Origin: Maribacter algicola
Lineage (GTDB): Bacteria; Bacteroidota; Bacteroidia; Flavobacteriales; Flavobacteriaceae
Length of the DNA stretch: 64,000 bases
Reading direction: 5' to 3'
Assembly (NCBI RefSeq): GCF_003933245.1
Contig: NZ_QUSX01000001.1
Span: forward strand, 1,550,001-1,614,000
Part shown: positions 1-14,263 of the stretch, piece by piece
Layout: each line of letters opens with the position of its first letter
How positions within the stretch are numbered: the first letter of the stretch is position 1
Position numbers and translations under genes: made by a program
Notes under the pieces: generated by a model
Database searches by the model: none
Told to the model about the DNA's origin: nothing
Seen by the model: only the letters and a program-made list of their open reading frames with translations

Positions 1-108
1 GAGTAGTTGCGTGGTTTAGCACTTAACTTTGCAAGTACACACCAGGCTGAAAATCCGCTAGGATTTTCAGAAGTAGGCGAGAACAAGCAATTACTTATAG
101 CCAATGTT
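1..108. repeat. attC-like site 1, right part only
   Basis: This is the right-hand part of a site whose left part lies outside the window. It closely matches 7572-7681. It holds a 10-bp perfect hairpin (CTGAAAATCC at 47-56, loop GCTA, complement 61-70) and ends in TATAGCCAATGTT before the slot repeat GTTGTGCTT. No gene is seen in it. Confidence 0.65.
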
Positions 109-117
109 GTGCTTTCG

Positions 118-870
118 TTATTTATTTTGTAACTCAATTGTAATCTTATCTATCAGTTCAAGAATACTATTTTCAACTCTTTTTCCACGGGATTGAATTG
201 TGCTATTTTCGAAAGCAATAGCATTTAGTAACTTAATGAATTTTGAATCTTTTTTTAATTTTTGATAATCCTCCTTACTAATGTCAAAATAAAATCCATA
301 GTAAGCTGAGGGGTTATTTATATCATAATTCATTGAAAAGTATTCTAATAGTTGTGTTTCGCTATGTAAGGCGTGAAATCTTCCGCGTTCATCCTCATAA
401 GTTTTATAATAAGGGTATAATATATCATATTGATATGAAATAGAATTTCTCAGACTGTCATTTTTGATTATTCCCACACTTCGAGATTGCAATAAATTAT
501 ATCCACTATTTATGGGGTTAAAATGTGGTGTAACTCTTAGAATAGCTGAACTTACCGATAAAGAATCGGTTGGTTCGTCAAGAGTAAGTAAATGATTTTT
601 AACACTTAAACAGGCCTTATTAATGTCAACCATTAACTCTAAATCTTCTCTAATTTCTGTTAGGTCTGTTTGGAGGTTATTTCGAATTTCTTTTAGAATT
701 TTGACTTCAAAATCATTTGCTTTCCTTTGCTCATTCAGGTTGTTCACCTGAAGTGCAATTAAAATTCCAATAACCACAAGAACAATTTCTCCAATTGCAT
801 ATTTCAAATACTTTCCAGTTTTATTTTCCATAAGCAAGTTTTGGCGAATTTTTCTAAAGAATTTTATCAT
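118..870 (-). CDS. DUF6090 family membrane protein (cassette gene)
   Basis: This 250-residue protein has the layout of the Bacteroidota DUF6090 family: a basic start (MIKFFRKIRQNLL), a Gly/Lys/Tyr stretch GKYLKYAIGEIVLVVIGILI, one membrane helix at about residues 26-44, then a soluble helical region of roughly 200 residues. The biochemical role of the family is unknown to me. It fills the first slot, lying tightly between the inverted repeats at 106-114 and 893-901, and has no operon partner, as expected of a cassette gene. The ATG start at 870 sits 22 bases from the right-hand repeat. The next minus-strand gene upstream belongs to another slot, so expression from a promoter within the slot or the site is likely. 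Family call is firm, function is open. Confidence 0.8.
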   Translation of the reverse strand: MIKFFRKIRQNLLMENKTGKYLKYAIGEIVLVVIGILIALQVNNLNEQRKANDFEVKILKEIRNNLQTDLTEIREDLELMVDINKACLSVKNHLLTLDEPTDSLSVSSAILRVTPHFNPINSGYNLLQSRSVGIIKNDSLRNSISYQYDILYPYYKTYEDERGRFHALHSETQLLEYFSMNYDINNPSAYYGFYFDISKEDYQKLKKDSKFIKLLNAIAFENSTIQSRGKRVENSILELIDKITIELQNK

Positions 871-898
871 CGGTTATTGGTTGGTCATAATGAAGCAC

Positions 899-1378
899 AA
901 CGCCGCGCTATGTGAAGTCCGGCGAATTTTATGGAAATATAGTGAAAACCATCAACGATGGTTCGGTTATCTGGCAGGTTTTTGGTATTGTGAACCGTAT
1001 CATCGTTCATCGATAAGGCTACGTAGTGGCCGTCTATCGTGGTTTTCACGGTATTGGGAATAAAATTTGTCGACCAGATTACATATAGCGTCCTGATATG
1101 TCGAGTAGATAAGCCGTAGCGGCGGTCTTTGCAAAGAGGTCCCTTATCCTACGGCCAATGTAATCTGGCATAGCGCGGCGATGATGTCGACTGGCTTTTG
1201 GTGCGGTAATTGCGCTAGCAATGCGACAAAAGTACGCCGCAGGCGTATTCGACATCATCGTTATTGTATAAGATTAGTGGCGTGTTTAAGCACCTAATTT
1301 AGCAAATAAAACTGAATAGGAAATCCGCGAGGATTTTGGTAAGTAAGCGAGAACTAGCCATTAATTTTATACGGTGTT
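899..1378. repeat. Composite attC-like site 2 (P1-P2-P3)
   Basis: This 480-bp stretch without a credible gene consists of three palindromes in a row. P1 is enclosed by CGCCGCGCTATG (901-912) and its perfect complement (1169-1180), and itself contains GTGAAAACCA/TGGTTTTCAC (942-951, 1040-1049) and CCAGATTACAT/ATGTAATCTGG (1074-1084, 1158-1168). P2 is enclosed by CGATGATGTCGA (1179-1190) and its perfect complement (1249-1260). P3 has arms at 1266-1281 and 1357-1372 (14 of 16 paired) with an inner AAATCC-GCGA-GGATTT hairpin. A short reading frame at 881-1063 runs through P1 but has no protein-like character. Confidence 0.7.
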
Positions 1379-1419
1379 AGCAACTGGCTTTTTTCTCCAT
1401 AATAAGTTGTTATGGCAAA

Positions 1420-1986
1420 CTATTCATTTTTTAATTTATCTATATACGGTTTTATTTCCTCTAAAGTATATCGTTGCTGGATATGCTGTGGGCAATTTAT
1501 ATCCCAAGCTGTTATTTTTATTTTAATGATTCGTTCTATAGGGACGTCATAGTCTTTATCTATAAACTGTTCCATAAGATTTGATTCATTTGTGATGATG
1601 GAAGCTTCTCCCCAAATTTTTATTCTTTTCCTATTTGGGTAATCTATTAAAAAGAGGTGTACTTTATTATTTTCATCAAAATTACCTACTGAAATATATT
1701 GCCTATTTCCTGAAAAGTCTGCAAAGGCCAAATGTTGGTCATCCATCACTTTTAAAAAGCCTTTAGGACCACCTCTATGTTGTATGTAAGGTTGCCCATC
1801 TGCATTTGCCGAAGCCATATAAAAAGAATCTCTTTCACTAATAAAAAAACGGAGTTGTTCAGTGATTTTAGTTTGCCAATCCCTTTTTTCTGCCATATTT
1901 TGATAGGCTACTCTTGAGCCCATTTCTTCTTGTCTATTTTTTACTGACGGAGTGAATGCAATATCACTTATATATCTTGAATCCAT
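1420..1986 (-). CDS. Pyridoxamine 5'-phosphate oxidase-family (FMN-binding split barrel) protein
   Basis: A 188-residue protein resembling the PPOX-like FMN-binding split-barrel family. Typical stretches are FYMASANADGQPYIQHRGG (about residues 56-74, strand-turn contacting flavin), LAFADFSGNRQY (about 85-96) and the basic RKRIKIWGEA strand (about 118-127). Members bind FMN or F420 and reduce small molecules or act in redox protection; substrate cannot be read from sequence. It is the last gene of the ten-gene TetR-controlled run, 13 bases after the Dps-like gene, and its stop lies about 30 bases from the slot repeat at 1376-1389. Company with Dps, OsmC and AhpD-like proteins points to a role in oxidative or electrophile stress (inference). 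Confidence 0.8.
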   Translation of the reverse strand: MDSRYISDIAFTPSVKNRQEEMGSRVAYQNMAEKRDWQTKITEQLRFFISERDSFYMASANADGQPYIQHRGGPKGFLKVMDDQHLAFADFSGNRQYISVGNFDENNKVHLFLIDYPNRKRIKIWGEASIITNESNLMEQFIDKDYDVPIERIIKIKITAWDINCPQHIQQRYTLEEIKPYIDKLKNE

Positions 1987-1999
1987 ACGTGTGTGTTTT

Positions 2000-2473
2000 T
2001 TAATTTATATAGGCAGAATACATCCAAACTGATTTTTCCTGCTCTCTAATATAATCGCTCATTAAAGCATTTGTTCCTTCATCATTTGAATCTGATGCAA
2101 GGTCTAATAATTCCCTTTCGAGCGGTAGTAGTGTTTCATATCCTTTCAATATTAATTGAATAGCATCTTCTCCGTTGCTTATGTCTTTTGCTTCTTGGAT
2201 TGATGCTGAATTCAGATAATCAGAATAGTTATGCAATGGTGTGTAGCCCAATGTCAATATTCGCTCTGCTATCTCATCAATTTTTATTAAGGAGTCATTA
2301 TATAACTCTTCAAATTTCAAGTGCAGCTCAAAAAAATTATTGCCTTTGATATTCCAATGAAAACCTCGTGTATTCATGTAGAATATTTGATAGTTCGCAA
2401 GTAGAACATTTAATCTTTCCGCAAGTACTTTAGACTCTTTAACATTGAGTCCGATTCTGTTTAAATTCTTCAT
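2000..2473 (-). CDS. dps: Dps-family ferritin-like DNA-protection protein
   Basis: A 157-residue Dps/miniferritin protein. The intersubunit ferroxidase ligands expected for the family are visible: H39 in FHWN, H51, D66 and E70 in the stretch KIDEIAERI. Length and the four-helix pattern fit. Dps dodecamers oxidise Fe(II) with hydrogen peroxide and store iron, sparing DNA; DNA binding itself cannot be judged because there is no long basic tail. The C-terminus ends at SVWMYSAYIN, slightly shorter than many homologues. It follows the 64-residue gene by only 3 bases, so translation is probably coupled, and it is transcribed with the other stress genes of the TetR slot. Confidence 0.92.
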   Translation of the reverse strand: MKNLNRIGLNVKESKVLAERLNVLLANYQIFYMNTRGFHWNIKGNNFFELHLKFEELYNDSLIKIDEIAERILTLGYTPLHNYSDYLNSASIQEAKDISNGEDAIQLILKGYETLLPLERELLDLASDSNDEGTNALMSDYIREQEKSVWMYSAYIN

Positions 2474-2476
2474 TTT

Positions 2477-2671
2477 TCAATTATTTAAGTTAATAAGTTT
2501 TTTAAATACCCCTTTGGTATACCTAACATACTTCTTGTTTTCTAAATCATATCCAACCCATTGGTAAGTATTGCCAAACGGACAACTTGGTGCATCCTCA
2601 TACTCTTTACCCGACCGTAGCTCATACCGCTTTGGATCTTTAGAAAAGACTTGCATGTCTATCCTTTTCAT
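2477..2671 (-). CDS. Small conserved-looking protein of unknown function
   Basis: I do not recognise this 64-residue protein. It is basic and soluble, with no membrane segment, and contains a CPFGNTYQWVGYD stretch and a Tyr/Lys-rich C-terminus. It is packed without a gap against the zinc-ribbon gene upstream (which stops at 2672) and 3 bases from dps downstream, so the small frame is almost certainly translated as part of the operon. The single Cys in APSCPF could be redox-active given the neighbours, but nothing proves this. Confidence 0.6.
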   Translation of the reverse strand: MKRIDMQVFSKDPKRYELRSGKEYEDAPSCPFGNTYQWVGYDLENKKYVRYTKGVFKKLINLNN

Positions 2672-2953
2672 TTAAGTTTGTTTATATGCGACTTTACATT
2701 TGTTGCAGACCAACTCATGATTTTTGGGGCGAAGTACGATTTCTGTTAGGTTTTTGTTGACATAATCCTGTATCCAACCAATATTAGAGTCCTTTGTATT
2801 TAGGCTTGGGGCGTTCACCTTTATAGCTTCAAAGAATTGTCCCCCATATTCTTGCCTTCCCCAACAATTGGGACAGAAACCTTCTGGTGACTGGGATGGG
2901 GTAAGATGTTTATCTGATTCTAAAAACTTTAAGAGCTTATCTATTAGGTTCAT
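2672..2953 (-). CDS. Small zinc-ribbon-like protein
   Basis: A 93-residue protein with two CxxC knuckles: CPNC at residues 27-30 and CNKC at 83-86, the spacing of a split zinc ribbon. The middle part is rich in Asn/Lys and has no membrane helix. I know of similar small proteins beside OsmC-type genes in flavobacteria but no defined role. It lies 104 bases after osmC-like, the largest gap inside the operon apart from the operator region, and abuts the next small gene. Zinc binding is inferred from the cysteines only; a thiol-based sensor or chaperone are both possible. Confidence 0.65.
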   Translation of the reverse strand: MNLIDKLLKFLESDKHLTPSQSPEGFCPNCWGRQEYGGQFFEAIKVNAPSLNTKDSNIGWIQDYVNKNLTEIVLRPKNHELVCNKCKVAYKQT

Positions 2954-3057
2954 TATGTTATTTTTTAGTATTAAAAATATTTATTCTTCCTCTCTGGATT
3001 GTATTTACAGGATATGCACACAGAAATTTCCTATCCTCACATGCTGCTTGGTGCTGC

Positions 3058-3477
3058 TTACACAGCAGAGGTTTTGATTTTGATTTCGTTGAGCAGGGTC
3101 TTATTTACTGGGCATTTATCTGCAATTTCCATAAGCCTTGCTCGCTGTTTGTCATCAAGTTTGCCTGTTAATTTAACTTCCTTCTCAATTAGATGGACGT
3201 AACCTTCAGTTGATTTACAATCTTCACAATCATTATGGTGTAACCGTTCTTGCGATAACTTTACTTCAACACCTTCCAAGTCCCAATTTTTCCTGTCCGC
3301 ATACATACGGATTGTCATAGCTACACAACCACCTAAAGCCATTAGCAATAAACTGTAAGGGTCGGTGCCTTGATCTGTGCCAAAAGGAGCTGGTTCATCT
3401 CCAATTACTTGATGCGTTCCATCAGAAAAGATGGTTTTATAATTAGACCGGTCGATTTTTGCAGTTACGTGTTTCAT
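3058..3477 (-). CDS. OsmC-family peroxiredoxin-like protein
   Basis: This 139-residue protein belongs to the OsmC/Ohr fold. The two conserved cysteines of the family are present: C51 in LGGCVAMTIRMYADRK and C122 in ADKCPVNKTL, and an acidic GTDPYSLLLMALGG lead-in precedes the first. In OsmC/Ohr proteins these cysteines reduce organic hydroperoxides. An additional CxxC (CEDC, residues 84-87) is unusual for the core fold. Lack of the exact Ohr signature favours the YhfA/OsmC-like subgroup. It sits 21 bases downstream of the glyceraldehyde-3-phosphate dehydrogenase gene in the TetR operon and fits its stress theme. Confidence 0.88.
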   Translation of the reverse strand: MKHVTAKIDRSNYKTIFSDGTHQVIGDEPAPFGTDQGTDPYSLLLMALGGCVAMTIRMYADRKNWDLEGVEVKLSQERLHHNDCEDCKSTEGYVHLIEKEVKLTGKLDDKQRARLMEIADKCPVNKTLLNEIKIKTSAV

Positions 3478-3498
3478 TGTTTATTTTTTTTAGTTGGA

Positions 3499-4488
3499 TT
3501 ATACATTTTCTAATATTTGTCTAATCATTTGATTAGCAAAGCCCCATTCATTGTCATACCACGCCAATACTTTTACCAAATCTCCATCCACAACCTTTGT
3601 CATTTCTAAATCAATAACTGCGGCGTGTGGGTCTTTAACTATGTCACTTGAAACAATAGGGTCATTAGTCACTCTTATTACATTTTTATAGCGAGCAGTT
3701 GAAGCCTCTTCTGTAAATATTTGATTGAGTTCTTCTTTAGAGGTCTTTCTAGTTGTTACTAGTGTAATATCTGAAACCGACCCAATTGCTACTGGAACTC
3801 TAATTGCCATACCGTCAAATTTACCTGCATACTCTGGTAACGACTTAGTGGTTGCTGTGGCTGCACCTGTTGAGGTGGGAATTAAATTATTCATTCCAGA
3901 CCTTCCCATTCTTGTTTTTTTAGAGGGTGCATCTACTGTGCTATTAGAAGATGTGTTTGCGTGTACTGTGGTCATTATCGCTTTTGCGATACCTATTCTT
4001 CTGCCCAAAATCTCAATAACAGGACTTATATTGTTTGTGGTACAGCTTGCACAAGAAAATATTGTGTTCTTTCCATCTTTAGTATTTACACCGTGTATAA
4101 CCGTTGGAACGCCGCCACTTGCGGTAGGTCCCGAAATTACAACGACTTTAGCTCCTGCATCTACGTGTTTTTGAGCGTCTTCTTCTTTAGTAAAAAAGCC
4201 TGTACTTTCTATTACGACATCTACATCAAGTTCTTTCCAAGGAAGGTCTTCTGGATTTCTTTGAGAATAGAAAGGAATTTTTTTTCCGTTTACTAGTAAA
4301 CTATCATTCTCTACATTTACGTCTTTTTCAAAAATTCCGTGAACACTATCATATTTTAGGAGGTAGGCAATGTTCTCGATGGAAGCAATATCATTAACTG
4401 CTACCAAGTCTAATGCTGGATTATCTAAAATTATTTTCAAAGAGGCTCTTCCTATGCGCCCCATTCCGTTTATGGCTATTTTTTTCAT
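3499..4488 (-). CDS. gap: Glyceraldehyde-3-phosphate dehydrogenase, divergent paralogue
   Basis: A 329-residue type I GAPDH. The Rossmann fingerprint GMGRIG is at residues 8-13, D32 favours NAD, the catalytic C149 lies in SCASCTTNN, and H176 in TTVHANTSSN is the base; IPTSTGAA further on is the phosphate-binding stretch. The loop after H176 (normally TVHAYTNDQ) is changed to NTSSNSTVDAPSKK, and the first residue before Cys is SCA rather than SNA, so this is not a typical housekeeping copy. Its position among OsmC, Dps and AhpD-like genes suggests a stress-specific replacement for oxidised GAPDH (inference). It is 12 bases downstream of the hydrolase gene. Confidence 0.92.
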   Translation of the reverse strand: MKKIAINGMGRIGRASLKIILDNPALDLVAVNDIASIENIAYLLKYDSVHGIFEKDVNVENDSLLVNGKKIPFYSQRNPEDLPWKELDVDVVIESTGFFTKEEDAQKHVDAGAKVVVISGPTASGGVPTVIHGVNTKDGKNTIFSCASCTTNNISPVIEILGRRIGIAKAIMTTVHANTSSNSTVDAPSKKTRMGRSGMNNLIPTSTGAATATTKSLPEYAGKFDGMAIRVPVAIGSVSDITLVTTRKTSKEELNQIFTEEASTARYKNVIRVTNDPIVSSDIVKDPHAAVIDLEMTKVVDGDLVKVLAWYDNEWGFANQMIRQILENV

Positions 4489-4500
4489 TTTTGTTCTATT

Positions 4501-5481
4501 CTATTGGTTAATTGTTTTCATAAATGCCCTCATTTTTGAAATGATTTCGGCGCCATCTTCCTCTAGTGCAAAGTGTCCTGTGTTAAAGATGTTGTAATCA
4601 ATATTTTTTACGTCCTTTTTAAATGCCGCAGCACCACTCTCAGGAAAAAACTCATCATTTTTACCCCAAACCACTAAAAGCGGTGGTTGATTATCTCTTA
4701 AATATTGTTGCCACGTCGGGTATAGTGTTAAATTATTCTGGTAATCATACAATAAATCTAAAGCGGCATTATGAGCATTAGGTCGTGATAATCTTAAATA
4801 GTCAAGTTGCCAGTTATCTGGATTCACATTTTCAATATTTCTAGTCCCGTGTGTATATTGCCACTTTAATCCCTCTAATGAGAATGCAGGTAGTATAGCT
4901 TTTTCAGTCTCGAGAGTTCTATTTGCCCATAGTACTCTTATATCTTTCCAAGCTTTTCCAAGCCCTTCTTCATACGCATTTCCATTTTGATTAATGATTG
5001 CCGTAATGCGTTCTGGGTGGGCAGTTGCAATCCTAAAACCTACAGGAGCGCCAAAGTCTTGAATCATTAAGGCATAAGAGTTAAGTGCTTTCTTTTCAAG
5101 AAAGGCGTCTATGGTCTTTGCTAAATTGTCAAAGGTGTATTGATACTCATCTGGAGAAGGGAAATCACTATTCCCGAATCCTGGGTAATCTGGTGCTATG
5201 AGATAAAATTCATCAGATAACTCGTTTAAAACCTTGCGATATTGTTGTGAAGATGAAGGAAAACCGTGTAGTAAAACGATAGTTGGGTTATCTGGGTTTC
5301 CAGCTTCTCGATAAGCGATATTCACTCCATTAATATCGATGCTTTTAAATTTAGTAGTCTGCTCTTTTAATGCAGTCTGTGTTGTCGTTACGGTAGTGGT
5401 ATCGCTTTTTTCTTCTACGTTCTGTTGACACGCTACGATGAATAGGACCAGCAGTAATTTAAGTGTTATAAATTTTTTCAT
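4501..5481 (-). CDS. Alpha/beta hydrolase lipoprotein, dehalogenase/epoxide-hydrolase type
   Basis: A 326-residue exported hydrolase. A lipobox ends at C18 (LFIVACQQ), followed by a Thr/Gln-rich linker. The oxyanion-hole motif HGFPSSSQ is at about 72-79; the nucleophile elbow reads IQDFGAPVG, giving D142 rather than Ser, as in haloalkane dehalogenases and epoxide hydrolases. The catalytic His lies in NTGHFALEEDG near residue 310. Substrate is unknown; detoxifying an electrophile would fit the operon. It lies 16 bases after the DUF1348-like gene and 12 before gap. Both the signal and the Asp nucleophile are direct readings, the function is inference. Confidence 0.85.
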   Translation of the reverse strand: MKKFITLKLLLVLFIVACQQNVEEKSDTTTVTTTQTALKEQTTKFKSIDINGVNIAYREAGNPDNPTIVLLHGFPSSSQQYRKVLNELSDEFYLIAPDYPGFGNSDFPSPDEYQYTFDNLAKTIDAFLEKKALNSYALMIQDFGAPVGFRIATAHPERITAIINQNGNAYEEGLGKAWKDIRVLWANRTLETEKAILPAFSLEGLKWQYTHGTRNIENVNPDNWQLDYLRLSRPNAHNAALDLLYDYQNNLTLYPTWQQYLRDNQPPLLVVWGKNDEFFPESGAAAFKKDVKNIDYNIFNTGHFALEEDGAEIISKMRAFMKTINQ

Positions 5482-5497
5482 TGTGTTTGTTTTAAGG

Positions 5498-5908
5498 CTA
5501 TAGTTTCCTATCAGTTTCTTTTATTTGTAGATCATTAATGCTCGCATAACGTTTTTGCATCAAACCGTTTTCATCAAACTCCCAATTCTCATTGCCGTAA
5601 GCACGGAACCACTGACCATCTTTGTTTCTGTACTCGTACTCAAACCTTACAGCAATTCTATTGTCAAGAAAAGCCCATAGTTCTTTTTTGAGTTTATATT
5701 CTAATTCATTTTGCCATTTGTCTTTTAGAAATTCTTGTACTTCTTGACGCCCATTAATAAATTGATTTCTATTGCGCCATTCCGTATCGATGGAATAAGC
5801 CATTGAAATTTTTACCGGGTCTTTACTGTTCCAAGCGTCTTCTGCCAGTTGTACCTTCTGTTTTGCTGTTTCAGTATTAAATGGCGGTAAAGGATGTTTT
5901 GTTTCCAT
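5498..5908 (-). CDS. NTF2-like DUF1348 protein
   Basis: This 136-residue protein resembles the DUF1348 group of the nuclear transport factor 2 (cone-shaped) fold: it starts with [21 protein letters not shown], has the [11 protein letters not shown] turn at about 45-55, the FLKDKW helix, and the strand pair ending in [13 protein letters not shown]2-like proteins bind small molecules in a pocket and some act as isomerases or dehydratases; none is proven for this group. It follows the AhpD-like gene by 55 bases and precedes the alpha/beta hydrolase by 16, so it is an operon member under TetR control. Confidence 0.82.
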
Positions 5909-5963
5909 AATTTTAAAGTTTATTAGGACAATGCGTATTCTTGCATTGTCCTTTAGATGAGTT

Positions 5964-6503
5964 TTATATTTTAGCTACTACAGGAAAATCTATTACTGTG
6001 TTGGCTGTATTATTAAAATAGTTAGTAAATACGTTTAAGGCTACGTGAGCTATAATTTCTCCAATTTCTCCTTCTGTGTAACCTGCATCTTTTACCATTT
6101 GTACATCTTCATCAGATACTCTTCCTCCTGTAGTTACCAGTTTTTTTGCAAACACCAAACCTGTTTGGACCTTCTCATTAGAACTCTCAGCTGTTCTTGC
6201 CGATTGTAAAGAAGTTGAATCTATTTTTACTAAATTTTCTCCAATAAAAGTGTGTGCAGATAGGCAATAATCACAATTATTCTCTTGCGATACTGTTAGG
6301 GCTATTAATTCGCCCATTTTTGCACCAATACTTGCTTTAGCTAATGCACCACTTAAGTTTAAGTAACCTTCTAATACAGCAGGTGAATTACCCATAGTTC
6401 TCATCATATTTGGCACCATACCCAACTTTGATTGAACTCCGTTAAATAATTCTTTTGATTTACCAGTTGTTGTTTCTGGATTTAAAGCTTGTAATCGTTT
6501 CAT
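5964..6503 (-). CDS. AhpD-like carboxymuconolactone decarboxylase-family protein
   Basis: A 179-residue protein of the CMD/AhpD fold. The redox motif is [10 protein letters not shown]77, C80 and H84, the CxxCxxxH pattern of alkylhydroperoxidase-type members that reduce peroxides by a thiol relay. An upstream Glu (E65 in [10 protein letters not shown]) occupies the usual proton-relay site. It is the first structural gene of the operon: its ATG lies 32 bases from the perfect palindrome at 6535-6550, the presumed TetR operator. This makes it the best candidate for the main product of the response. Confidence 0.9.
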
Positions 6504-6534
6504 TTTTTTAATTTTAATGTTAATAATTTATATT

Positions 6535-6550
6535 TACCGAACGTTCGGTA
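6535..6550. promoter_or_regulatory. TetR operator, structural-gene side
   Basis: TACCGAACGTTCGGTA is a perfect 16-bp palindrome between tetR and the AhpD-like gene, placed to block transcription of the nine structural genes. A near-identical copy at 7164-7179 lies before tetR. The paired positions make TetR the obvious binder (inference). Confidence 0.8.
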
Positions 6551-6571
6551 TATTTTTGACGTAAAAAAAAG

Positions 6572-7135
6572 TTATTCCTTACTATATCGATTTTTAATTA
6601 TGCGTAATGTGTTTTCAAAAATACTCAAATCTTTAAGTCCTTCAGAGACGATTAGACTTCCTTGAATATCAATCAAATTTTGTACGGCATTGCTTTTTGC
6701 CTCTTCTTTAGATTGTCCAAAAGCTAATCCAAGTTCCATGAAATGATGAATCCATTGTTCCATACCATTTTTAATGCGACTTCCAAATAATTCAAGACCT
6801 ACTTTCATAGATAATGTTCTAAAAATACAGGATTCTTCACCGTCATTATATAACTCTTTAATATTATTTATACTTTGGTTTAATCTTTGATCAGGAGTGA
6901 GCGTGTTGTTTATTAAGGCTCCGAATATTTTTATTTCTACCCATTCATCTATATAGTTGAATACAGCTTCTGCCATTTGTTTTTTGCCCTCTGGAAATCT
7001 GTGATACAAACTAGCTTTTTTTAACCCTGTAGCATCAGCTATTTCATTAAGGCTTGCACCTTCAAATCCTTTTGCTCTGAACACTTTGGTCAAAGCAGAA
7101 TAAATATCGTTATCTAAAACTTTTTGTGGTCTCAT
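6572..7135 (-). CDS. TetR/AcrR-family repressor of the stress operon
   Basis: A 187-residue TetR-family regulator with its helix-turn-helix at about residues 23-54 (GASLNEIADATGLKKASLYH plus the RFPEGKKQM helix), followed by a divergent helical ligand domain. Such proteins leave DNA when a small ligand binds. The two palindromes TACCGAACGTTCGGTA and TACCAAACGTTCGGTA flank the gene at its 3' and 5' sides, consistent with separate control of the downstream operon and of itself. The ligand is unknown; a reactive electrophile or oxidised lipid would suit the cargo. The gene is the first of the large slot and starts about 60 bases from the slot end at 7196-7204. Confidence 0.9.
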   Translation of the reverse strand: MRPQKVLDNDIYSALTKVFRAKGFEGASLNEIADATGLKKASLYHRFPEGKKQMAEAVFNYIDEWVEIKIFGALINNTLTPDQRLNQSINNIKELYNDGEESCIFRTLSMKVGLELFGSRIKNGMEQWIHHFMELGLAFGQSKEEAKSNAVQNLIDIQGSLIVSEGLKDLSIFENTLRIIKNRYSKE

Positions 7136-7163
7136 AGGGCAAATATACGAATAAAAAATTAAT

Positions 7164-7179
7164 TACCAAACGTTCGGTA
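7164..7179. promoter_or_regulatory. TetR operator, autoregulatory copy
   Basis: TACCAAACGTTCGGTA, 28 bases before the tetR start, matches the operator at 6535-6550 in 15 of 16 positions. It implies negative autoregulation. It lies inside the slot, 16 bases from the terminal repeat, so the regulator would carry its own control region if the slot moved. Confidence 0.75.
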
Positions 7180-7201
7180 AATTTTATTTCAGCTTGTTGC
7201 T

Positions 7202-7681
7202 AACGCAGGGCTATGTGAAGCCACGTTACGGGTTTTAAATTTACGCAATTGGTTGGGATAAATTTAAAATACGTGTTGAACGTGGACAGGTTGCATATAG
7301 CCGTTGATATGTACAGTTATCCTCGATGGCACCTAAAGGTGATAGGTTGGCTGGTCCCTTATCCTACGGATTATGCAAACTGGCATGGCCCGGAGCCTGT
7401 GCAGAGTTTACCGAAGTAATGATGTACAAATCCCAAGGGGCGGGAATTGGAGCCTTTGGCGAGAATGTAGCGACTTGGGTTCACCTTTAGGTGACCGAGC
7501 GAAGCGACCGATGAATACCCTTGAAAAACAATAAAAATTAGATGAATAATTGTACATCATTGGTCTCGGCTATGAGTAGTTGGGTGGTTTAGCACTTAAT
7601 TTTGCAAGTACACACCAACCTGAAAATCCGCGAGGATTTTCAGAAGTGGGCGAGAACAAGCAATTACTTATAGCCATTGTT
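7202..7681. repeat. Composite attC-like site 4 (P1-P2-P3)
   Basis: This 480-bp gene-free stretch has the same three-part plan as 899-1378 but largely different sequence. P1 starts CGCAGGGCTATG (7204-7215) and contains CAGGTTGCAT/ATGCAAACTG (7287-7296, 7373-7382). P2 is closed by ATGATGTACAA (7419-7429) and its perfect complement (7550-7560). P3 runs from GGTCTCGGCTATG (7562-7574) to TTATAGCCATTGTT, with a 10-bp GCGA-loop hairpin at 7620-7643. Confidence 0.7.
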
Positions 7682-7689
7682 GTGTGCAG

Positions 7690-8766
7690 TTATTTTATTT
7701 CTTTTTTAATGTTTAAAGCCAACTCTTCAAGTCTATCATCTATTCCTTTAGATAAAACTGTGCCTTCAAAACTGGCATTCGATAATACAGCAATTCCAAT
7801 GTTAGATTCTGGGAAAATCATAAGCCAATTCTGCATTCCCCAAATTCCACCGTGATGACGATAACATATTTCGTTTTCAAATTCAATAATATTCCAATGA
7901 TATCCGATATCAAAATCGTATTGAGTCTTGAAAAAGTTTTTATGGGATTCTTGAACTTCTGGTATTGATTCGTTCAAATGGTATTTAATATATTTCATTA
8001 AATCCTTTGTGTTTGAATGAATCCCAGCAATTCCGCCCCAAAGGTTGTTTTGAAAATGCTCTTGTGGTTCCTTCTCTCCATTGTAGCCTTGTATCAACAA
8101 AATTTTGTCGTTTGCATTGAGGACAAATTTGGTGTTTGTCATTTCGTTTGGTTCTAAAATATGTTCCTCAATCAGTTTTTGATATGGAACTCCGTAAGTT
8201 TTTTCAAGGATATATGCAGTTATTTCAGGTGCAGTGTTTGAGTAATGGAATTCCGTTCCGGGTTTAGAGCTTATTTCTACCTGATGCAATCCATTCCAAA
8301 ATGCTTTCTTGTTTTCATCATCAGGTGGAAAATTTGGAAAACCGCCTGTATGAGTTATGATATCTTTAATTGTTATTTTTTCTCCTTCGTATTCAAAATT
8401 GGGATATTCCTGTGGCAAATAGTTACGAATATCATCGTCAAGCGATATTTTACCATCAAGAACCGCCTTTGCAACCATTGTTCCGGTAAAGGTCTTGGTT
8501 ACAGAGGCCAGTTCATAAAGCGTAGAGTCGGTTGGTGGGTTTTTCTTGTTTGGATTTTGTTCGCCAAAATGAAATGTAGTTTCTTTTCCGTTATTGTAGA
8601 GTGCAATTGAAACGGAATAAATTCTGTCATCATCTAAAAACTCGGTAGCAAAATGTTCGACAATTTCCTCTGGGCTTTTATTCTCTATTGATTTATTTCG
8701 ATTGCAACTGACTATTAAAAAAGTTACAAATCCAAAAAGTATTGTTTTCTGAATGTTTCTTATCAA
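7690..8766 (-). CDS. Serine hydrolase of the beta-lactamase (class C/DD-peptidase) fold, lipoprotein
   Basis: A 358-residue secreted hydrolase. The lipobox LIVSC gives C21. The nucleophile motif is S88-V-T-K91 in ELASVTKTFTGT, the second motif is Y175-S-N177 in FHYSNTAPE, and a HHGG motif near residue 308 replaces the KTG triad. This is the pattern of class C-like esterases and peptidases; beta-lactam hydrolysis is not implied. It fills slot 3 alone, between the repeats 7679-7688 and 8788-8797. No ATG is available near the start: the frame opens with TTG at 8764-8766, which gives a good signal sequence (MIRNIQKTILFGF). Confidence 0.88.
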   Translation of the reverse strand: MIRNIQKTILFGFVTFLIVSCNRNKSIENKSPEEIVEHFATEFLDDDRIYSVSIALYNNGKETTFHFGEQNPNKKNPPTDSTLYELASVTKTFTGTMVAKAVLDGKISLDDDIRNYLPQEYPNFEYEGEKITIKDIITHTGGFPNFPPDDENKKAFWNGLHQVEISSKPGTEFHYSNTAPEITAYILEKTYGVPYQKLIEEHILEPNEMTNTKFVLNANDKILLIQGYNGEKEPQEHFQNNLWGGIAGIHSNTKDLMKYIKYHLNESIPEVQESHKNFFKTQYDFDIGYHWNIIEFENEICYRHHGGIWGMQNWLMIFPESNIGIAVLSNASFEGTVLSKGIDDRLEELALNIKKEIK

Positions 8767-8794
8767 TGTTTATCGATTTTTGGTAATTGCAAAC

Positions 8795-9275
8795 AACGCC
8801 GCGCTATGTGAAGTCCGGCGAATTTTATGGAAATATAGTGAAAATCATCAACGATGGTTCGGTTATCTGACCGGTTTCGGATATTGCTAACCGAATCATC
8901 GTTCATCGATAAGGCTACGTAGTGGCCGTCTATCGTGGTTTTCACGGTATTGGGAATATAATTTGTCGACCAGATTACATATAGCGTCCTGATATGTCGA
9001 GTAGATAAGCCGTAGCGGCGGTCTTTGCAAAGAGGTCCCTTATCCTAGGGCCATTGCAATCTGACATAGCCCTGCGATGATGTCGACTGGCTTTTGGTGC
9101 GGCAATTGCGCTAGCAATGCAACAAAAGTACGCCGCAGGCGTATTCGACATCATCGGTTTGTATAAACGCAGTAGCGGTATTTTATGCACTGACTTTTCG
9201 TTTTATAATGGACGTTCAATTTATGTGTTTTGTTTGGTTTAATCACCTTCACCGCTATTGCGTTTATACCGTGTT
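8795..9275. repeat. Composite attC-like site 3 (P1-P2-P3)
   Basis: Nearly a copy of 899-1378 in P1 and P2. The 5' arm of P1 is CGCCGCGCTATG (8797-8808), but the 3' arm is CATAGCCCTGCG (9065-9076), which pairs perfectly with the P1 arm of the site at 7204-7215, not with its own. P2 is bounded by CGATGATGTCGA (9075-9086) and its complement (9145-9156). P3 differs: arms 9161-9178 and 9252-9269 pair at 17 of 18 positions. No credible gene is present. Confidence 0.7.
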
Positions 9276-9284
9276 ACCTGCTGT

Positions 9285-11546
9285 TTACTTCCTATAATTC
9301 TCTAATATATTTGTACTTACCCAATATATGTCTTGATTGCTCGTGTAAAAAAGGTATTTTCCATCTCCTGATACAAATGGACATAATTCGTGCTTTTCTG
9401 TATTTATGGATTCTCCCATATTTACTGCCTCGGTCCAATTTCCATTTTTGTTTTTAAAGCTTATGTACAAATCTCCTTGACCAAGTCCATTTTTACGAAT
9501 AGAACAGAATATCATATATGACTCATCTGGTGCGATAAATACATCGGCCTCATATCTATTGGTGTTTATGGATTCAGGTAAGATTTCGGGTTCCAAGAAT
9601 TGTCCATTCTCATATTCAGAACGATAAATGTCAAAAGCATAACGAGGTGCATCTTTAGATTTGTCTTTAGATGCAAAATATAGTGTTCCATCATTCGTAA
9701 AAGATGCATAATATTCATTCAAGGGGCTGTTCACAGGCAATCCCAAATTTATTGGTTTAGACCATTCTGACTCTATTCTTTCTCGCTCTATGTACCAAAG
9801 GTCTATATCTTCTTTTGTTGTTTCTCCATCAGGCGAACGGTTGGATATGAAATAAAGCCGTTTCTGGTCTGGTGAAAACATCGGGTCATTGTAGCTGATA
9901 GAATCAGATTCAAAAAGCTTTCTTTGAGACGACCAAACACCATCTATCAAGTTTGAAAAATGGATTTCCATTACACCATTGTTATCTACACCAAAATAGA
10001 ATTCTGTTCCATCCTTCGAGAGTGTGCACCCAAACTCGTGTCTATCTGGTTTTGATATGATATTTGGCGCGAACAATTCAGGTCGATTAAGTGGCGGTTT
10101 TTGACCAAAATAGGTCATTAAATTGTCTGTTTCTGAACCTACATTTCCCTTAACAGAATTTATCAGTTTCTTAGGGTCATAACCAATCCCATTTTTAAAT
10201 ACAGTCGCTACTTTCCTAATTGTCTTTGGATTATTTTCTAAGTCGCCATTAAGTATGACCAAATTTGCAATTTTTCCTTCTTCAATCGTACCGATGTCGC
10301 TTCTTTCTAAAAGCTTGGCTCCATTGGAAGTCATCACTTGAATAGCTTCTTCTGGCGTAAACCCGGCTTCAATAAATAATTCATAATTTTTTTGGTCGCC
10401 AAATCCGGGCATATTGTGAAGACCTGGGTCAAGACCTGCTACTAACAATCCTCCCATTTTAAAGAACTGAAGTTCGTAGGCCATTGATTTGGTAAGCCAT
10501 TCTTTTTTGAAATACCAAGCATCACCCTGTGCTTGTTTTCTTGCTTCGCGGGTATAGTATGCTTCGCGGTGATGAGGTGCCATTACCTCCAAATCTCTCA
10601 AATCCGCAGCGACATTTGCCTGAGCTTCAAAAATGGCCAATGTAGAACCTAGGGCCACTTCATTTTCAATTAATTTTTGTTGAACCTCTTTAACTTCATC
10701 GCTTTCTATCGCCAAGTTTGTTCTAAAATCAGTATTCCCACTACAAGTACCTATTTCTCTTTCGGTTGCGTAGTCATAGCTATGAATAAAGCCGTGTTCA
10801 ACAGCATTAATTCCTATTTCGGCAGCTTCAGAGTAGGTAGTAGCACAAAGATGCCCTGTTACTTTTAAGTTATTTTTATGTGCCTCGTCAACTATGACCT
10901 TTAAATCTTGTGGTCTTGTATCTGTGTAAACTTTTAACCATTTAACTCCTTTGTTTGCCCAGTATTGAATGGTATCTCTCACCATTTTCTCGCTCGTAAA
11001 TCTTACGAAATTTGGTCTTCCATCAGGTCCTGTAAAGTAAGGCCCCGAATTTATTATCTCTGGTCCAGGCTGCGCTCCGTCTTCGATGGATTTTGCTATG
11101 GCCAATTCTTCATAAGGGTTTCCAGTTCCACAAGTTTCGATAGTTGTCACTCCGGCAGCGAGATATAATTTTGGTGATGTTGAGAGCATAGCGGAACTTG
11201 GAATTCTCATATGGTTGTGCATCCCAATAATTCCTGGAATAATGGTCTTGCCTGAAAGATTTATTTGATAGAATCCATTTGGGACTTGCAGTGAATTTGA
11301 GTTCCCAACTTTGAGAATTTTGCCATTTTCAATTAAAATTGTTTGGGAATCTCTTAATGGATTGCCTGTTCCATCAATTACCTTGACATTTTGCAAAGCA
11401 ACCCTTGAAGAATCAAGAGAAACGAAGCTCTCTGTATAATCTGACAAGCCTACTCTTGAATCTTGCGACACCTCCTCTTGTTTCTGTGAACAACTTTGGA
11501 AGGAAACTAGTGTTGGGACAATTAAAATTTTAAATAGTCTTTTCAT
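9285..11546 (-). CDS. Amidohydrolase fused to a PD40 beta-propeller, lipoprotein
   Basis: A 753-residue exported protein with two parts. After a lipobox at C19 (SFQSCSQ), residues about 50-470 form a metal-dependent amidohydrolase: the H110-x-H112 pair in GMHNHMRIP, a His in KVTGHLCATT near 232, HGFIHSYDY, and the Asp of AGLDPGLHNMPG. Residues about 500-753 carry five TolB-like PD40 blades (for example MFSPDQKRLYFISNRSPDG). Such fusions are usually imidazolonepropionase- or prolidase-like enzymes of unknown substrate; a secreted peptide or cyclic amide hydrolase is likely. The stop codon lies 2 bases inside the slot repeat at 9273-9282. It is the only gene of its slot. Confidence 0.87.
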   Translation of the reverse strand: MKRLFKILIVPTLVSFQSCSQKQEEVSQDSRVGLSDYTESFVSLDSSRVALQNVKVIDGTGNPLRDSQTILIENGKILKVGNSNSLQVPNGFYQINLSGKTIIPGIIGMHNHMRIPSSAMLSTSPKLYLAAGVTTIETCGTGNPYEELAIAKSIEDGAQPGPEIINSGPYFTGPDGRPNFVRFTSEKMVRDTIQYWANKGVKWLKVYTDTRPQDLKVIVDEAHKNNLKVTGHLCATTYSEAAEIGINAVEHGFIHSYDYATEREIGTCSGNTDFRTNLAIESDEVKEVQQKLIENEVALGSTLAIFEAQANVAADLRDLEVMAPHHREAYYTREARKQAQGDAWYFKKEWLTKSMAYELQFFKMGGLLVAGLDPGLHNMPGFGDQKNYELFIEAGFTPEEAIQVMTSNGAKLLERSDIGTIEEGKIANLVILNGDLENNPKTIRKVATVFKNGIGYDPKKLINSVKGNVGSETDNLMTYFGQKPPLNRPELFAPNIISKPDRHEFGCTLSKDGTEFYFGVDNNGVMEIHFSNLIDGVWSSQRKLFESDSISYNDPMFSPDQKRLYFISNRSPDGETTKEDIDLWYIERERIESEWSKPINLGLPVNSPLNEYYASFTNDGTLYFASKDKSKDAPRYAFDIYRSEYENGQFLEPEILPESINTNRYEADVFIAPDESYMIFCSIRKNGLGQGDLYISFKNKNGNWTEAVNMGESINTEKHELCPFVSGDGKYLFYTSNQDIYWVSTNILENYRK

Positions 11547-11562
11547 TTCTCAAATAGCAGGT

Positions 11563-11687
11563 AACGGTCTAGTATAACCGTCAGTTACGGGTTAATATGC
11601 GTTAATTTTCGGTTTGGCACAGACTTTAGCAATTCCGAGTGGATTCGGACGCAGTCGAATCCGCCGTAATTGCGGTTATACATTGTT
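11563..11687. repeat. Simple attC-like site 5
   Basis: A 125-bp site without P1 or P2. GTATAACCG (11572-11580) pairs perfectly with CGGTTATAC (11673-11681), the inner part is a further nested palindrome around 11628-11672, and the ends are AAC and GTT. Size and plan are those of a classical integron attC. Confidence 0.65.
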
Positions 11688-11706
11688 GGCATTTCGTTTT
11701 TATTGC

Positions 11707-12645
11707 TCATTTGTTATTTTCCTTCAAGATTCCTTCATACAATTCCATAATTGTTTCTGTTGAAGGTTCTTTCTTCATATTTTCTATCCGTTCCTTTTGG
11801 GTAGCTTGCCATCTATATAACCAAGAAATCCCCCATTTTTTGAAATAATTATCTTTTTGTTGGTACACTTTATCAGTCAATGCGTTTTCTAGGTTGATAA
11901 ATTGATATTGTCTTTTTTTTAATTCGGTTATTAATTGGGGCAAAAAATCTGCATTTAACTTGTTGTCGTGACAAAGATAGATTTGGTTGATTGTCCGTTG
12001 ATAATCTTCTTTTGCAAGAGTCTCAAAAAAATCAAAATATTCTAAAGTTTTAATTAAATAAGACTCTCCAATTTCTTTCGCTTTTTTGAAATCTTTTATA
12101 CTCAAATAATGCTCGTAAACAGTATTATACATCCAATCGGAACTTTCTATTGTAAATGGTGTAATTATGTATCCTTTCTCTTGTAAAAAATCTTTTATTT
12201 GAGAATGCTGAATAGAATCTTTCCCTAAATCGTTAAAAGGAAACCTGAAGTATTTAATGGGTTTCTTATATTTTTTTGCAAGTTGTCGTGAGATAGATTC
12301 ACCATTCACAATTTCGTGTGCGAAAGAATCAATTCCAATTGTGGAATATCTAAGATGATTAAACGAATGATTGCCTAATGTTACATATTCCTTTTGAATC
12401 CAATTGTTTAAAAGTTCAAAATTTTTAGAAATGGAATCAGTTTTGTATATCAGTCCTTCGTTAATAAATATTGCTATAGGTATCTTTAATGAGTCTAATT
12501 TATTCAAAAGAACAGATTGATAGCTGTCTTTTTTGAACCTATTTGAATTGGGTACATCATCAATTGTAATCGACACCATTTTTTGACAATTGGCCAATTG
12601 ATAAGTGATTAAAAATCCAGTTAATAATAGGTGTTTGAAATTCAA
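11707..12645 (-). CDS. Polysaccharide deacetylase-family (NodB-like) secreted protein
   Basis: A carbohydrate esterase family 4-like protein, likely cleaved at a signal peptide (LLLTGFLITYQLANCQ). Motif 1 is the TIDDVP pair of acidic residues, motif 2 is HSFNH (two zinc-binding His, the typical H-x3-H), and motif 3 is the Arg-containing YFRFPFND. These enzymes remove acetyl groups from peptidoglycan, chitin or xylan; substrate is not decidable. No ATG is present. TTG at 12643-12645 begins MNFKHLLLTGF; an earlier TTG at 12670-12672 would overlap the slot repeat at 12665-12673, which is why I prefer the later one. It is alone in its slot. Confidence 0.8.
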   Translation of the reverse strand: MNFKHLLLTGFLITYQLANCQKMVSITIDDVPNSNRFKKDSYQSVLLNKLDSLKIPIAIFINEGLIYKTDSISKNFELLNNWIQKEYVTLGNHSFNHLRYSTIGIDSFAHEIVNGESISRQLAKKYKKPIKYFRFPFNDLGKDSIQHSQIKDFLQEKGYIITPFTIESSDWMYNTVYEHYLSIKDFKKAKEIGESYLIKTLEYFDFFETLAKEDYQRTINQIYLCHDNKLNADFLPQLITELKKRQYQFINLENALTDKVYQQKDNYFKKWGISWLYRWQATQKERIENMKKEPSTETIMELYEGILKENNK

Positions 12646-12670
12646 TTTATTAGTTTTTTTAATGAATGCC

Positions 12671-12794
12671 AACGGTCTCGGCTATGATTTCGTAGCGGCA
12701 ATTCCCAACGGGAATTGTCGGACTGAAATCCAGCCGTATTAAAAGTAATTATTTTTAAGCTAGCGGTATGCAGCTATGAATTATAGCCATTGTT
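12671..12794. repeat. Simple attC-like site 6
   Basis: A 124-bp site beginning AACGGTCTCGGCTATGA and ending TTATAGCCATTGTT, with an inner hairpin formed by CAATTCCC and GGGAATTG around 12699-12717. The outer arms match P3 of the site at 7562-7681, so P3 and the simple sites are the same element class. Confidence 0.65.
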
Positions 12795-12809
12795 GGCGGT
12801 AGTTTTTTA

Positions 12810-13151
12810 TTACACGTCCCCAATATCAAATCCGTCGTATGAATTTATTCCAAATTTTTCAGCGACTTTGTAGAATTCTATGTTCCTTTCAAATAGGGAA
12901 TCAACTGAGTGAATTTCAACTTTTTCAATATGCAAATAATACATTTCCGCTTTTTCATTTTCTTCCGATTCCGCTTTGAAAATGTCAACAAAAGTGTAAC
13001 CATTCTTTTTAAGGTTATCCCCAACAGTTTTAAGTTTTTGGCGATTTTCGTCTAGAAAAAAATAACCATAAAGTAATTCCCGATTAATATCCCATTCCCC
13101 TTTTTGTCGGATGTCCTCGAAAACTTCCAGAATAGTACTCTTATCAATCAA
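12810..13151 (-). CDS. RraB-like (regulator of ribonuclease E) family protein
   Basis: A 113-residue acidic protein resembling the RraB/ribonuclease E inhibitor B family: an N-terminal helix, the GYFFLDENRQKL strand-turn, the GYTFVDIF strand and MYYLHIEKVEIHSVDSL near the C-terminal half, then YDGFDIGDV. In Proteobacteria RraB binds and inhibits RNase E; Bacteroidota members sit on mobile DNA and their role is unproven. The start is TTG at 13149-13151, as the frame is closed by a stop upstream and has an AAAGGA motif just before it. It occupies the slot nearest the recombinase remnant. Confidence 0.8.
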   Translation of the reverse strand: MIDKSTILEVFEDIRQKGEWDINRELLYGYFFLDENRQKLKTVGDNLKKNGYTFVDIFKAESEENEKAEMYYLHIEKVEIHSVDSLFERNIEFYKVAEKFGINSYDGFDIGDV

Positions 13152-13177
13152 TTTAATTCCTTTATTAAATTACCGCC

Positions 13178-13466
13178 AACGCCGCGCTATGTGAAGTCCG
13201 GCGAATTTTATGGAAATATAGTGAAAACCATCAACGATGGTTCGGTTATCTGGCAGGTTTTTGGTATTGTGAACCGTATCATCGTTCATCGATAAGGCTA
13301 CGTAGTGGCCGTCTATCGTGGTTTTCACGGTATTGGGAATAAAATTTGTCGACCAGATTACATATAGCGTCCTGATATGTCGAGTAGATAAGCCGTAGCG
13401 GCGGTCTTTGCAAAGAGGTCCCTTATCCTAGGGCCATTGCAATCTGACATAGCCCTGCGATGATGT
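13178..13466. repeat. Composite attC-like site 7, cut after P1
   Basis: P1 is complete: 5' arm CGCCGCGCTATG (13180-13191), 3' arm CATAGCCCTGCG (13448-13459). The left half is identical to the site at 899-1080, the right half to the site at 8970-9083, so it is a chimera of the two. P2 is lost: after ATGATGT (13460-13466) the sequence switches to the recombinase remnant. It is a strong direct repeat of 899-1187 and 8795-9083. Confidence 0.75.
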
Positions 13467-14263
13467 AAAAATTAAAGGCCTACAGCCCTAACACCATACG
13501 GGTGTACCTAGCTGAGTTTGCGCACTTGCTCCATCTATTGGATGATTATCCCGTACAGGACCTATCGCCCAAAAGGCTCAAGGATTACTTTTTGTACTGT
13601 GTAAACGTGGAGAAAATGGCAGAGCGTAAGATGAACGGAAAAATCAATGCCATTAAGTTTTTCTTTGAGCAGGTACTGCACAGACCAAAAATGTTCTTTG
13701 ATATTCCTAGACCAAAAAAGCCAACGACCCTGCCAAAGCTCCTGAGTAGAACAGAGGTAAAAAAAATAGTGCGCGTCACCATCAATTTAAAACACAATAT
13801 AGCAATACAGCTTTACTACGGTATGGGGTTACGGGTCTCAGAGTTGGTCAACCTCAAACTGGAGGATGTGGACAGTAAACGTATGATGGTGCGCATTTCC
13901 GTTGCAAAGGGAAAAAAGGACCGCTATGTGCCCTTACCGGAATCTATCCTGCCCAAACTTAGGGAGTATTATATCGCCTACAAGCCAAAATTATACCTTT
14001 TTGAAGGACAGTACGGCGGCCCCTATGCAAAAAGTAGTCTGCAACAGGTATTTAAAAATGCACTTAGGAAAGCGGGCATAAAAAAGACCATTGGTATACA
14101 CGGCCTTAGGCATAGTTATGCCACACATCTATTGGAAAGTGGGGCGGATATGCGGTTTGTCCAAGAATTGTTGGGTCACAATTCCATAAAGACCACCCAA
14201 CTGTACACCAAAGTGACCCCAAGAAGTATCTCCAAGATAAAAAGTCCGCTGGATAGTCTATAG
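13467..14263 (+). pseudogene. 5'-truncated tyrosine recombinase (XerD/IntI-like)
   Basis: The frame is open from 13469, reading KLKAYSPNTIRVYLAEF, which is the middle of the SAM-like core-binding domain, so the true N-terminus (perhaps 100 residues) is missing. A GTG at 13502 could start a 253-residue protein but lies inside the domain. The catalytic domain is intact: R111, K136/K138, H200-x-x-R203, H226 and Y235 (numbered from the GTG), ending IKSPLDSL. It is divergent from the cassette genes, as an integron integrase would be. I recall this IKSPLD-ending family as widespread in Bacteroidota; a link to the cassettes is inference. Confidence 0.8.

Follow-up and report, generated by a model that had tools for sequence, protein, structure and literature searches.

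What kind of system leaves a row of genes, each enclosed by its own pair of complementary ends? The question is raised by a 64,000-nucleotide stretch of the 4.1-Mb genome of Maribacter algicola (C1:1550001-1614000, hereafter the window), in which six gene slots lie at 106-13180, each starting with GTT and ending with AAC, next to a tyrosine recombinase frame. We consider it likely that the window captures an integron-like array of gene cassettes at its integrase-proximal end. The best overall explanation, which we regard as probable and in which we infer the recombination itself from sequence, is a variant of the integron: an integron-like lineage whose recombinases lack I2, the additional domain of the integron integrase IntI.

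Organization of the array

The genes of all six slots point left, the recombinase frame at the right end points right, and the array extends left beyond the window to about genome position 1542 kb. Slot ends were read from GTT inwards, comparing the start with the reverse complement of the tail. All six slots of the initial annotation were found with their GTT starts, AAC ends and complementary, slot-specific ends, and the readings bore out its description of five slots perfect over 9-10 bp and one (S3) with a single mismatch. The slots of that layout stood; the spacers at 899-1378, 7202-7681, and 8795-9275 turned out to be compound, with two hairpin sites around an insert free of open reading frames (ORFs). 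A fourth compound site, cut, is located at 13178-13467, and the two single-hairpin spacers (11563-11687 and 12671-12794) measure about 124 nt each. Sites were identified with a covariance model, R1, which was built from an alignment of 27 sites from M. algicola and related genomes and then used to find sites in the window genome and its relatives. The features are as follows.

106-901, minus strand: slot S1, a cassette with one DUF6090-type gene (118-870; PF19578 at 30.3 bits against a cut-off of 23.5); ends GTTGTGCTT/AAGCACAAC, 9 bp perfect.
899-1378, unstranded: compound site consisting of a site A hairpin, an ORF-less insert, and a site B hairpin (1257-1378), from folding and an R1 match at 1257-1378 (94.7 bits).
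1376-7204, minus strand: slot S2, large, with ten ORFs, from the ORF list and family matches, some below their cut-offs; ends GTTAGCAAC, 9 bp.
7202-7681, unstranded: compound site with site B at 7559-7681, from folding and an R1 match.
7679-8797, minus strand: slot S3, a serine hydrolase of the beta-lactamase fold family (PF00144); ends GTTGTGTGCA/GTTGTTTGCA, one mismatch.
8795-9275, unstranded: compound site with site B at 9153-9275, from folding and an R1 match.
9273-11565, minus strand: slot S4, an amidohydrolase with PD40 repeats (PF01979, PF07676); ends GTTACCTGCT, 10 bp.
11563-11687, unstranded: simple site with one hairpin (R1, 82.7 bits; among the 27 sites used to build the model).
11685-12673, minus strand: slot S5, a polysaccharide-deacetylase-like gene (NCBIfam matches below their cut-offs); ends GTTGGCATT, 9 bp.
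12671-12794, unstranded: simple site with one hairpin (R1, 78.7 bits; among the 27 sites used to build the model).
12792-13180, minus strand: slot S6, an RraB-family gene (PF06877), the first cassette of the array; ends GTTGGCGGTA, 10 bp.
13178-13467, unstranded: compound site, cut short where it joins the recombinase remnant (88% identity between 13128-13427 and 849-1148; junction read).
13469-14260, plus strand: tyrosine recombinase remnant, 264 codons open, no start, catalytic region present (relatives of 355 aa).

The two ends of most slots are complementary

Across loci, 341 distinct sites (343 less two duplicates) defined 274 adjacent slots, slots over 8 kb being skipped. The first 113 sites were a selection that comprised 94 of the 97 matches at E 0.01 or better, with one cut-off match (L068 12615) and a minus-strand shadow in L085 among those omitted, and 19 own-genome sites, a set without L024 14506 and L025 10525. 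When positions 4-10 of start and tail were compared, 162 slots matched at 7/7 positions and 63 at 6/7, together 225/274. At least 6/7 was reached by 2.9% of the 74802 control pairs that combined a start and a tail from different slots, and by 5.0% of 339 pairs formed from the two sides of one site; the slot-end match therefore exceeds chance. Among the 49 failing slots, 23 had a matching inner AAC, by eye mostly before a site that R1 had missed (control rate for such a rescue, 54/980).

The match over 9-10 bp noted in the window was confirmed across loci, and beyond it the match does not simply fade. Position 11 combines a G at the start with an A in the tail complement in 204/225 good slots, giving a G.T pair once the strand is folded, and in 204/225 the match resumes at position 12. 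The end patterns of the 225 slots comprised 160 plain ones, 25 with a T/A mismatch before the G/A, 18 with an extra T, and a varied remainder. The initial annotation had also contrasted these ends with integron ends said to be complementary over only 7 bp, which proved wrong. In most integron cassettes, 9-11 consecutive nt are paired (PMC2727003; here and below, citations refer to the portions of these papers that were available), and true-IntI arrays of the same phylum, in a scan preselected for at least 9 of the first 10 positions, show end matches of 10 bp, often 11-13. A long end match alone was thereby ruled out as a sign of something beyond an integron. Since it separates nothing from an ordinary integron, the distinction falls to the recombinase, the absent extrahelical base, and the conserved G.T pairs.

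The sites are hairpins with conserved G.T pairs

In the 27 aligned sites, 98.6% of the cells of a 16-bp L stem pair. The stem changes on both sides in 11/16 pairs, with a covariation score that was reached by 0/500 shuffles. G.T is found at L-stem position 7 in 25/27 sites and at position 12 in 26/27, and at both positions the opposite strand would carry A.C mismatches. In a folding test on the 291/341 sites of 90-140 nt, the AAC-to-GTT strand folded better in 265/291 site bodies; relative to the genes, this is the bottom strand, the one used by integrons (PMC8946536). An Rfam search of the window found no family at gathering score. A low-threshold scan for AAC..GTT plus a stem, which gave 9, 9, and 7 sites against 1-6, 4-7, and 2-3 in Markov-chain sequence, was replaced by R1.

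Compound sites were also observed in L025, L071, L099, and L102, in several genera. Their insert is roughly 300 bp long and the inner core is mostly ATC, not AAC; with such a core in most cases, a compound site may move as a whole, as one site.

The recombinases lack the additional domain of IntI

The window recombinase is up to 83% identical to 355-aa proteins and is missing about 91 N-terminal residues; the cut falls at the fusion of the compound site to the gene. The columns of alignment A3 with the catalytic residues of tyrosine recombinases are invariant, window copy included. We refer to recombinases of the window's own type as class A and to homologues of about 40-53% identity as class B.

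TIGR02249, the NCBIfam model for the integron integrase, matched the window copy and four relatives in two pieces, at 184.5-196.6 bits against a cut-off of 265. Between aligned R243 and H302, 58-59 residues were counted in 32/32 class A and B proteins and 100 in 17/17 true IntI, with a median of 66 in XerD (range to 97) and of 62 in XerC (range to 89). The 32 class A and B recombinases compared are without the IntI additional domain (I2) of about 42 residues. In the tree, class A and B formed one clade (96/91), true IntI another (94/100), and 17/19 XerCD rows a third (100/100). The remaining two Xer rows sit on long branches, of which the tree program warns, and may be wrongly chosen ORFs. Both the tree and the spacing count omit IntI_L161 and XerD_L195; the truncated window protein is not in the tree, which fixes neither the root nor the order of descent.

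Most class A and B proteins carry an N-terminal extension of about 85 residues, which is absent in L104 and its like. It has a shared motif of the type ..IxFxYN..L...KWSxTxKxWYLP in alignment A4. Pfam and PDB profile searches of the extension found no family above cut-off; a weak match to DUF5710 in 5/12 members (best E 0.017) was below it. As no profile matched above cut-off, a role of the extension in DNA binding is a guess.

Arrays lie on one side of the recombinase gene, in many loci with an attI-like palindrome

The linkage of sites to the recombinase genes was one-sided in both classes. For class B, 40 loci were chosen among the listed family matches (38 genomes, two of which give two each), and R1 matches were found in 39; the contig of the fortieth ends about 167 bp after the gene. 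Counting 230 of the 231 class B matches (one cut-off match was left out), 230/230 lay 3' of the integrase gene on the opposite strand, and for class A 94/94 of the matches used lay 5' of the integrase on the same strand. In both classes the array turns its GTT side toward the recombinase gene, and only the gene orientation differs. The draft contigs of L072, L074, L075, L077, L080, L097, and L098 end about 40-1600 bp upstream of the class A integrase, as if arrays broke assemblies.

A palindrome was observed in many loci between the AAC of the first cassette and the recombinase gene, as in L114, which reads AAC-atatgg-ATAAACGCACC-GGTGCGTTTAT. In class B it is often 42-50 bp from the gene end. 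In class A the stretch begins 149-152 bp before the start codon in 8/11 loci and in some reads ACATAAATA-actctg-TATTTATG. Across 42 loci (4/15 class A loci, and class B loci without a clear first tail, having been dropped), the attI-like palindromes were at or above the 99th percentile of shuffled sequence in 23, comprising 21/31 of class B and 2/11 of class A. Such a palindrome would serve as the attI site. The window junction at 13178-13467 contains no attI-like stretch of the kind found in relatives. With the first ~91 codons of the recombinase gene and the attI gone, the window array is probably frozen at present.

The moving unit is probably the gene with its 3' site

The slot had been proposed as a unit whose ends were once joined. 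The argument from 7-bp integron ends fell away, as described above; slot-specific complementarity, which is expected if both ends form one folded site in a free cassette, and a copy of S1 in another genus support the proposal. The gene of that copy, 95% identical to S1's, has the same end repeats, and its 3' site is 0.89 identical at a 5' site identity of 0.64 (baseline mean 0.67). In L215, with 76% protein identity to S1's gene, the ends match at 5/6 positions, the 3' site is 0.86 identical, and the 5' site 0.61. The initial annotation held that the same genes in relatives lacking matching inverted ends would speak against the unit, and this was found in part. Among 29 S1 homologues besides S1, the ends match at 5-6 of 6 positions in 5, of which 2 share the 3' site and 3 have unrelated sites; 24/29 showed no matching ends in the stretch searched, and most of these we take to be ordinary chromosomal paralogues.

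In 6 of 15 homologous slot pairs, the site 3' of the gene is shared (0.96-1.0) and the 5' site is not (0.33-0.68). These pairs are L086 1/3, L125 0/1, L067 1/2, L108 4/5, L128 2/3, and L113 4/6, four of them tandem neighbors. On this modest number of cases, gene and 3' site probably move together as one unit, as they do in integron cassettes. The median slot length is 642 bp. The longest ORF (at least 50 aa) was on the expected strand in 196/225 slots, on the other strand in 16, and absent in 13, and 168/225 slots had one ORF of at least 80 aa on the expected strand.

Comparison with arrays of true IntI in the same phylum

True IntI, meaning proteins above the TIGR02249 cut-off, were found in 84/296 Bacteroidota genomes, more than the literature passages available had suggested. 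None was found in the M. algicola genome, nor in any Flavobacteriaceae row of the 296-genome phylum sample. We chose 20 true-IntI loci, mainly by the room left on the contig. Cassette arrays are plain in many of them, among those listed L173, L179, L185, L189, and L192, and R1 at E 0.1 found no match in the 20.

The sites were compared by a model-free scan using slot-end matching only, in which sites with a stem score of at least 12 were counted (13/37 of class A, 144/220 of class B, and 50/57 of true IntI). The chain method behind it also yields false chains (20 of at least 4 slots in the shuffled 40 class B loci, the real ones not having been counted alike). A bulged base in the right arm was found in 46/50 sites near true IntI versus 9/157 class A and B sites. 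Conversely, G.T was found at stem positions 6-8 in 106/157 class A and B sites versus 0/50, and at positions 11-14 in 144/157 versus 1/50. At position 11 of the slot ends, G/A was present in 18/46 class A and 154/262 class B slots, some of them false slots, and was outside the five commonest pairs in 68 true-IntI slots. An earlier stem count, which covered 293 new sites (exact AAC and GTT, 90-190 nt, unique), had found a bulge in 33/33 classical sites, with 26 of the bulges located at position 7, the position that is G.T in the new sites.

Distribution of the sites

R1 sites at E 1e-6 were found in 251/299 Flavobacteriaceae genomes, with at most 11 candidates scored per genome, and a recombinase homologue at E 1e-60 or better in 86/299. 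When the two lists were compared by eye, 84/86 genomes with the homologue had R1 sites. In the phylum sample, R1 sites at E 1e-4 were found in 87/296 Bacteroidota genomes, many of them outside Flavobacteriaceae.

Proposed mechanism

We considered that the cassette would consist of GTT, the gene, AAC, and the hairpin site at the gene's 3' end, which lies on the left in the window. In the free circular cassette, the slot ends would flank the site and pair as an outer R stem of about 12-14 bp below the ~16-bp L stem. The recombinase encoded at the array end would then recombine this site, as a single folded strand, with an attI-like duplex beside its own gene. The recombinase family is distinct from IntI: I2 is missing, and most members have an N-terminal extension of their own, of ~85 residues.

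In IntI, the I2 helix docks extrahelical bases (PMC7790495, PMC3053210), the first of which directs strand choice (PMC2727003), and I2 has been described as the acquisition that took integron integrases from double- to single-strand recombination (PMC7790495). If the helix and the right-arm base work together, their joint absence here is as expected. With the helix missing, the right-arm base rare, and G.T at the same stem position, we infer that G.T marks the usable strand. Strand choice would thus depend on the conserved G.T pairs (L stem 7 and 12, R stem 11), which leave A.C mismatches on the other strand, and not on a flipped-out base, and the folded site may be recognized by other parts of the protein, perhaps the N-terminal extension.

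Relation to known systems and alternative explanations

The general layout is that of IntI integrons, with an integrase gene at one array end (truncated in the window), the array on one side of it, and in many loci a stretch resembling attI. The cassettes mostly carry a single ORF and point the same way, the cores are AAC/GTT, R''/R' pairing is specific to each slot (225/274), the 3' site appears to travel with the gene, and the bottom strand folds better. The differences are a recombinase without the additional domain and mostly with an N-terminal extension, sites that mostly lack the extrahelical base on the R''-L'' (right) arm, G.T at L-stem 7 and 12 and R-stem 11, and the failure of R1 to match in the 20 true-IntI loci. 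Two other arrays in the genome resemble clusters of attC sites lacking integron-integrases (CALINs) in having at least 2 sites with no recombinase homologue beside them, with sites defined by R1 in place of the classical attC model; unlike CALINs, their site type has G.T pairs and mostly no right-arm base. The catalytic core, the missing I2, and short palindromic attI candidates recall XerC/XerD, from which these recombinases differ in forming a separate clade, in their linkage to cassette arrays, and in the extension of most members. An 'integron-like' subgroup of tyrosine recombinases has been described in which the insertion is not fully conserved, although it is called essential for integron function (PMC8138268). 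The insertion is absent in the present recombinases.

If a true IntI, encoded elsewhere or since lost, had moved these sites as classical attC sites, as in an ordinary integron or CALIN, the shared layout, the AAC/GTT cores, and a spacer asymmetry like that of true-IntI arrays (6 and 2-3 nt) would follow, and the 84/296 genomes show that such integrases are at hand in the phylum. However, none is above cut-off in the genome itself or in the Flavobacteriaceae rows of the sample, R1 finds nothing at the 20 true-IntI loci, and it is the I2-less recombinases to which the sites are linked on one side; we judge this origin distinctly improbable. Somewhat less remote, although still unlikely, is recombination of the sites as double-stranded palindromes in the manner of Xer. 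The absence of a domain held to have enabled single-strand recombination (PMC7790495) and the palindromic attI-like sites, which recall dif, would both fit. Slot-specific compensatory ends and conserved G.T nevertheless fit a folded strand better, and nothing in a duplex site would call for G.T to be retained on one strand. Inverted ends on every slot might also suggest transposons with terminal inverted repeats, or elements like miniature inverted-repeat transposable elements, with the slot ends as their repeats. The same terminal repeat in every copy was not found; each slot in the window has ends of its own, the conserved sequence is found between the slots, and the family matches of the tested slot genes include no transposase, so we give this explanation next to no weight. 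Terminators or RNA elements, with slot ends pairing by chance or codon bias, would account for hairpins downstream of genes and were rejected as equally far-fetched: pairing in 225/274 slots against the 2.9% control links two ends of a slot across its gene, and no Rfam family reached gathering score.

Several observations weigh against an I2-less integron-like lineage as set out here. Left-arm bulges were found by the model-free scan in 54/157 class A and B sites versus 2/50 near true IntI, and the earlier stem count had a bulge in 92/293 new sites, nearly all in the left arm and three in the right, so the stems are not uniformly unbulged. The window copy of the recombinase is truncated, and no other close homologue was found in the genome, the next best being 31% identical. 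R1 sites were found in 167/213 family genomes without a homologue at E 1e-60 (lists compared by eye), so the sites are far more widespread than the recombinase at this threshold. Outside the family, several Bacteroidota carry both R1 sites and a true IntI, which makes it ambiguous there which recombinase uses the sites. Of the attI candidates, 19/42 were below the 99% control, including 9/11 of class A, the window's own type. Among the 15 homologous slot pairs, 2 share the right instead of the left site (L071/L109 and L113 5/6, the latter with a long slot as partner, in which a site may have gone undetected), and 7 have no clear side.

The system is not an artefact, and its details are not those of an ordinary integron; it is most probably a variant integron lineage. 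We see about even chances for a further-reaching proposal, that of a second, independently evolved integron in most Flavobacteriaceae, with a non-IntI, I2-less recombinase lineage and folded single-strand sites marked by G.T and perhaps read by a new N-terminal domain. A literature search that excluded preprints and most subscription journals found no description of cassette arrays served by a recombinase without I2. If real, a common lineage of this kind would be a natural counter-example to the I2 requirement and would make the question directly testable. One survey method, which defines IntI by its additional domain (PMC9668308), is expected to miss these integrases. Marine bacteria would also possess a large pool of mobile genes not yet counted as such.

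Cassette contents and further sites in the genome

The ten ORFs of S2 comprise a PPOX-type flavoprotein, a Dps-like protein, two small ORFs, an OsmC-like protein, a GAPDH-like protein (by eye), an alpha/beta-hydrolase-like protein, DUF1348, an AhpD-like protein, and TetR. At 5.8 kb, this slot combines stress and metabolic ORF types with a TetR regulator and is far above the median slot length. Neither of the two further arrays, at C1 about 1859-1871 kb and at C3 about 256-260 kb, has a recombinase homologue beside it, and three more single sites were found elsewhere in the genome. A transposase-like ORF at C1 about 1859835-1860803, which by eye we take to be IS110-like, adjoins a site of the second array.

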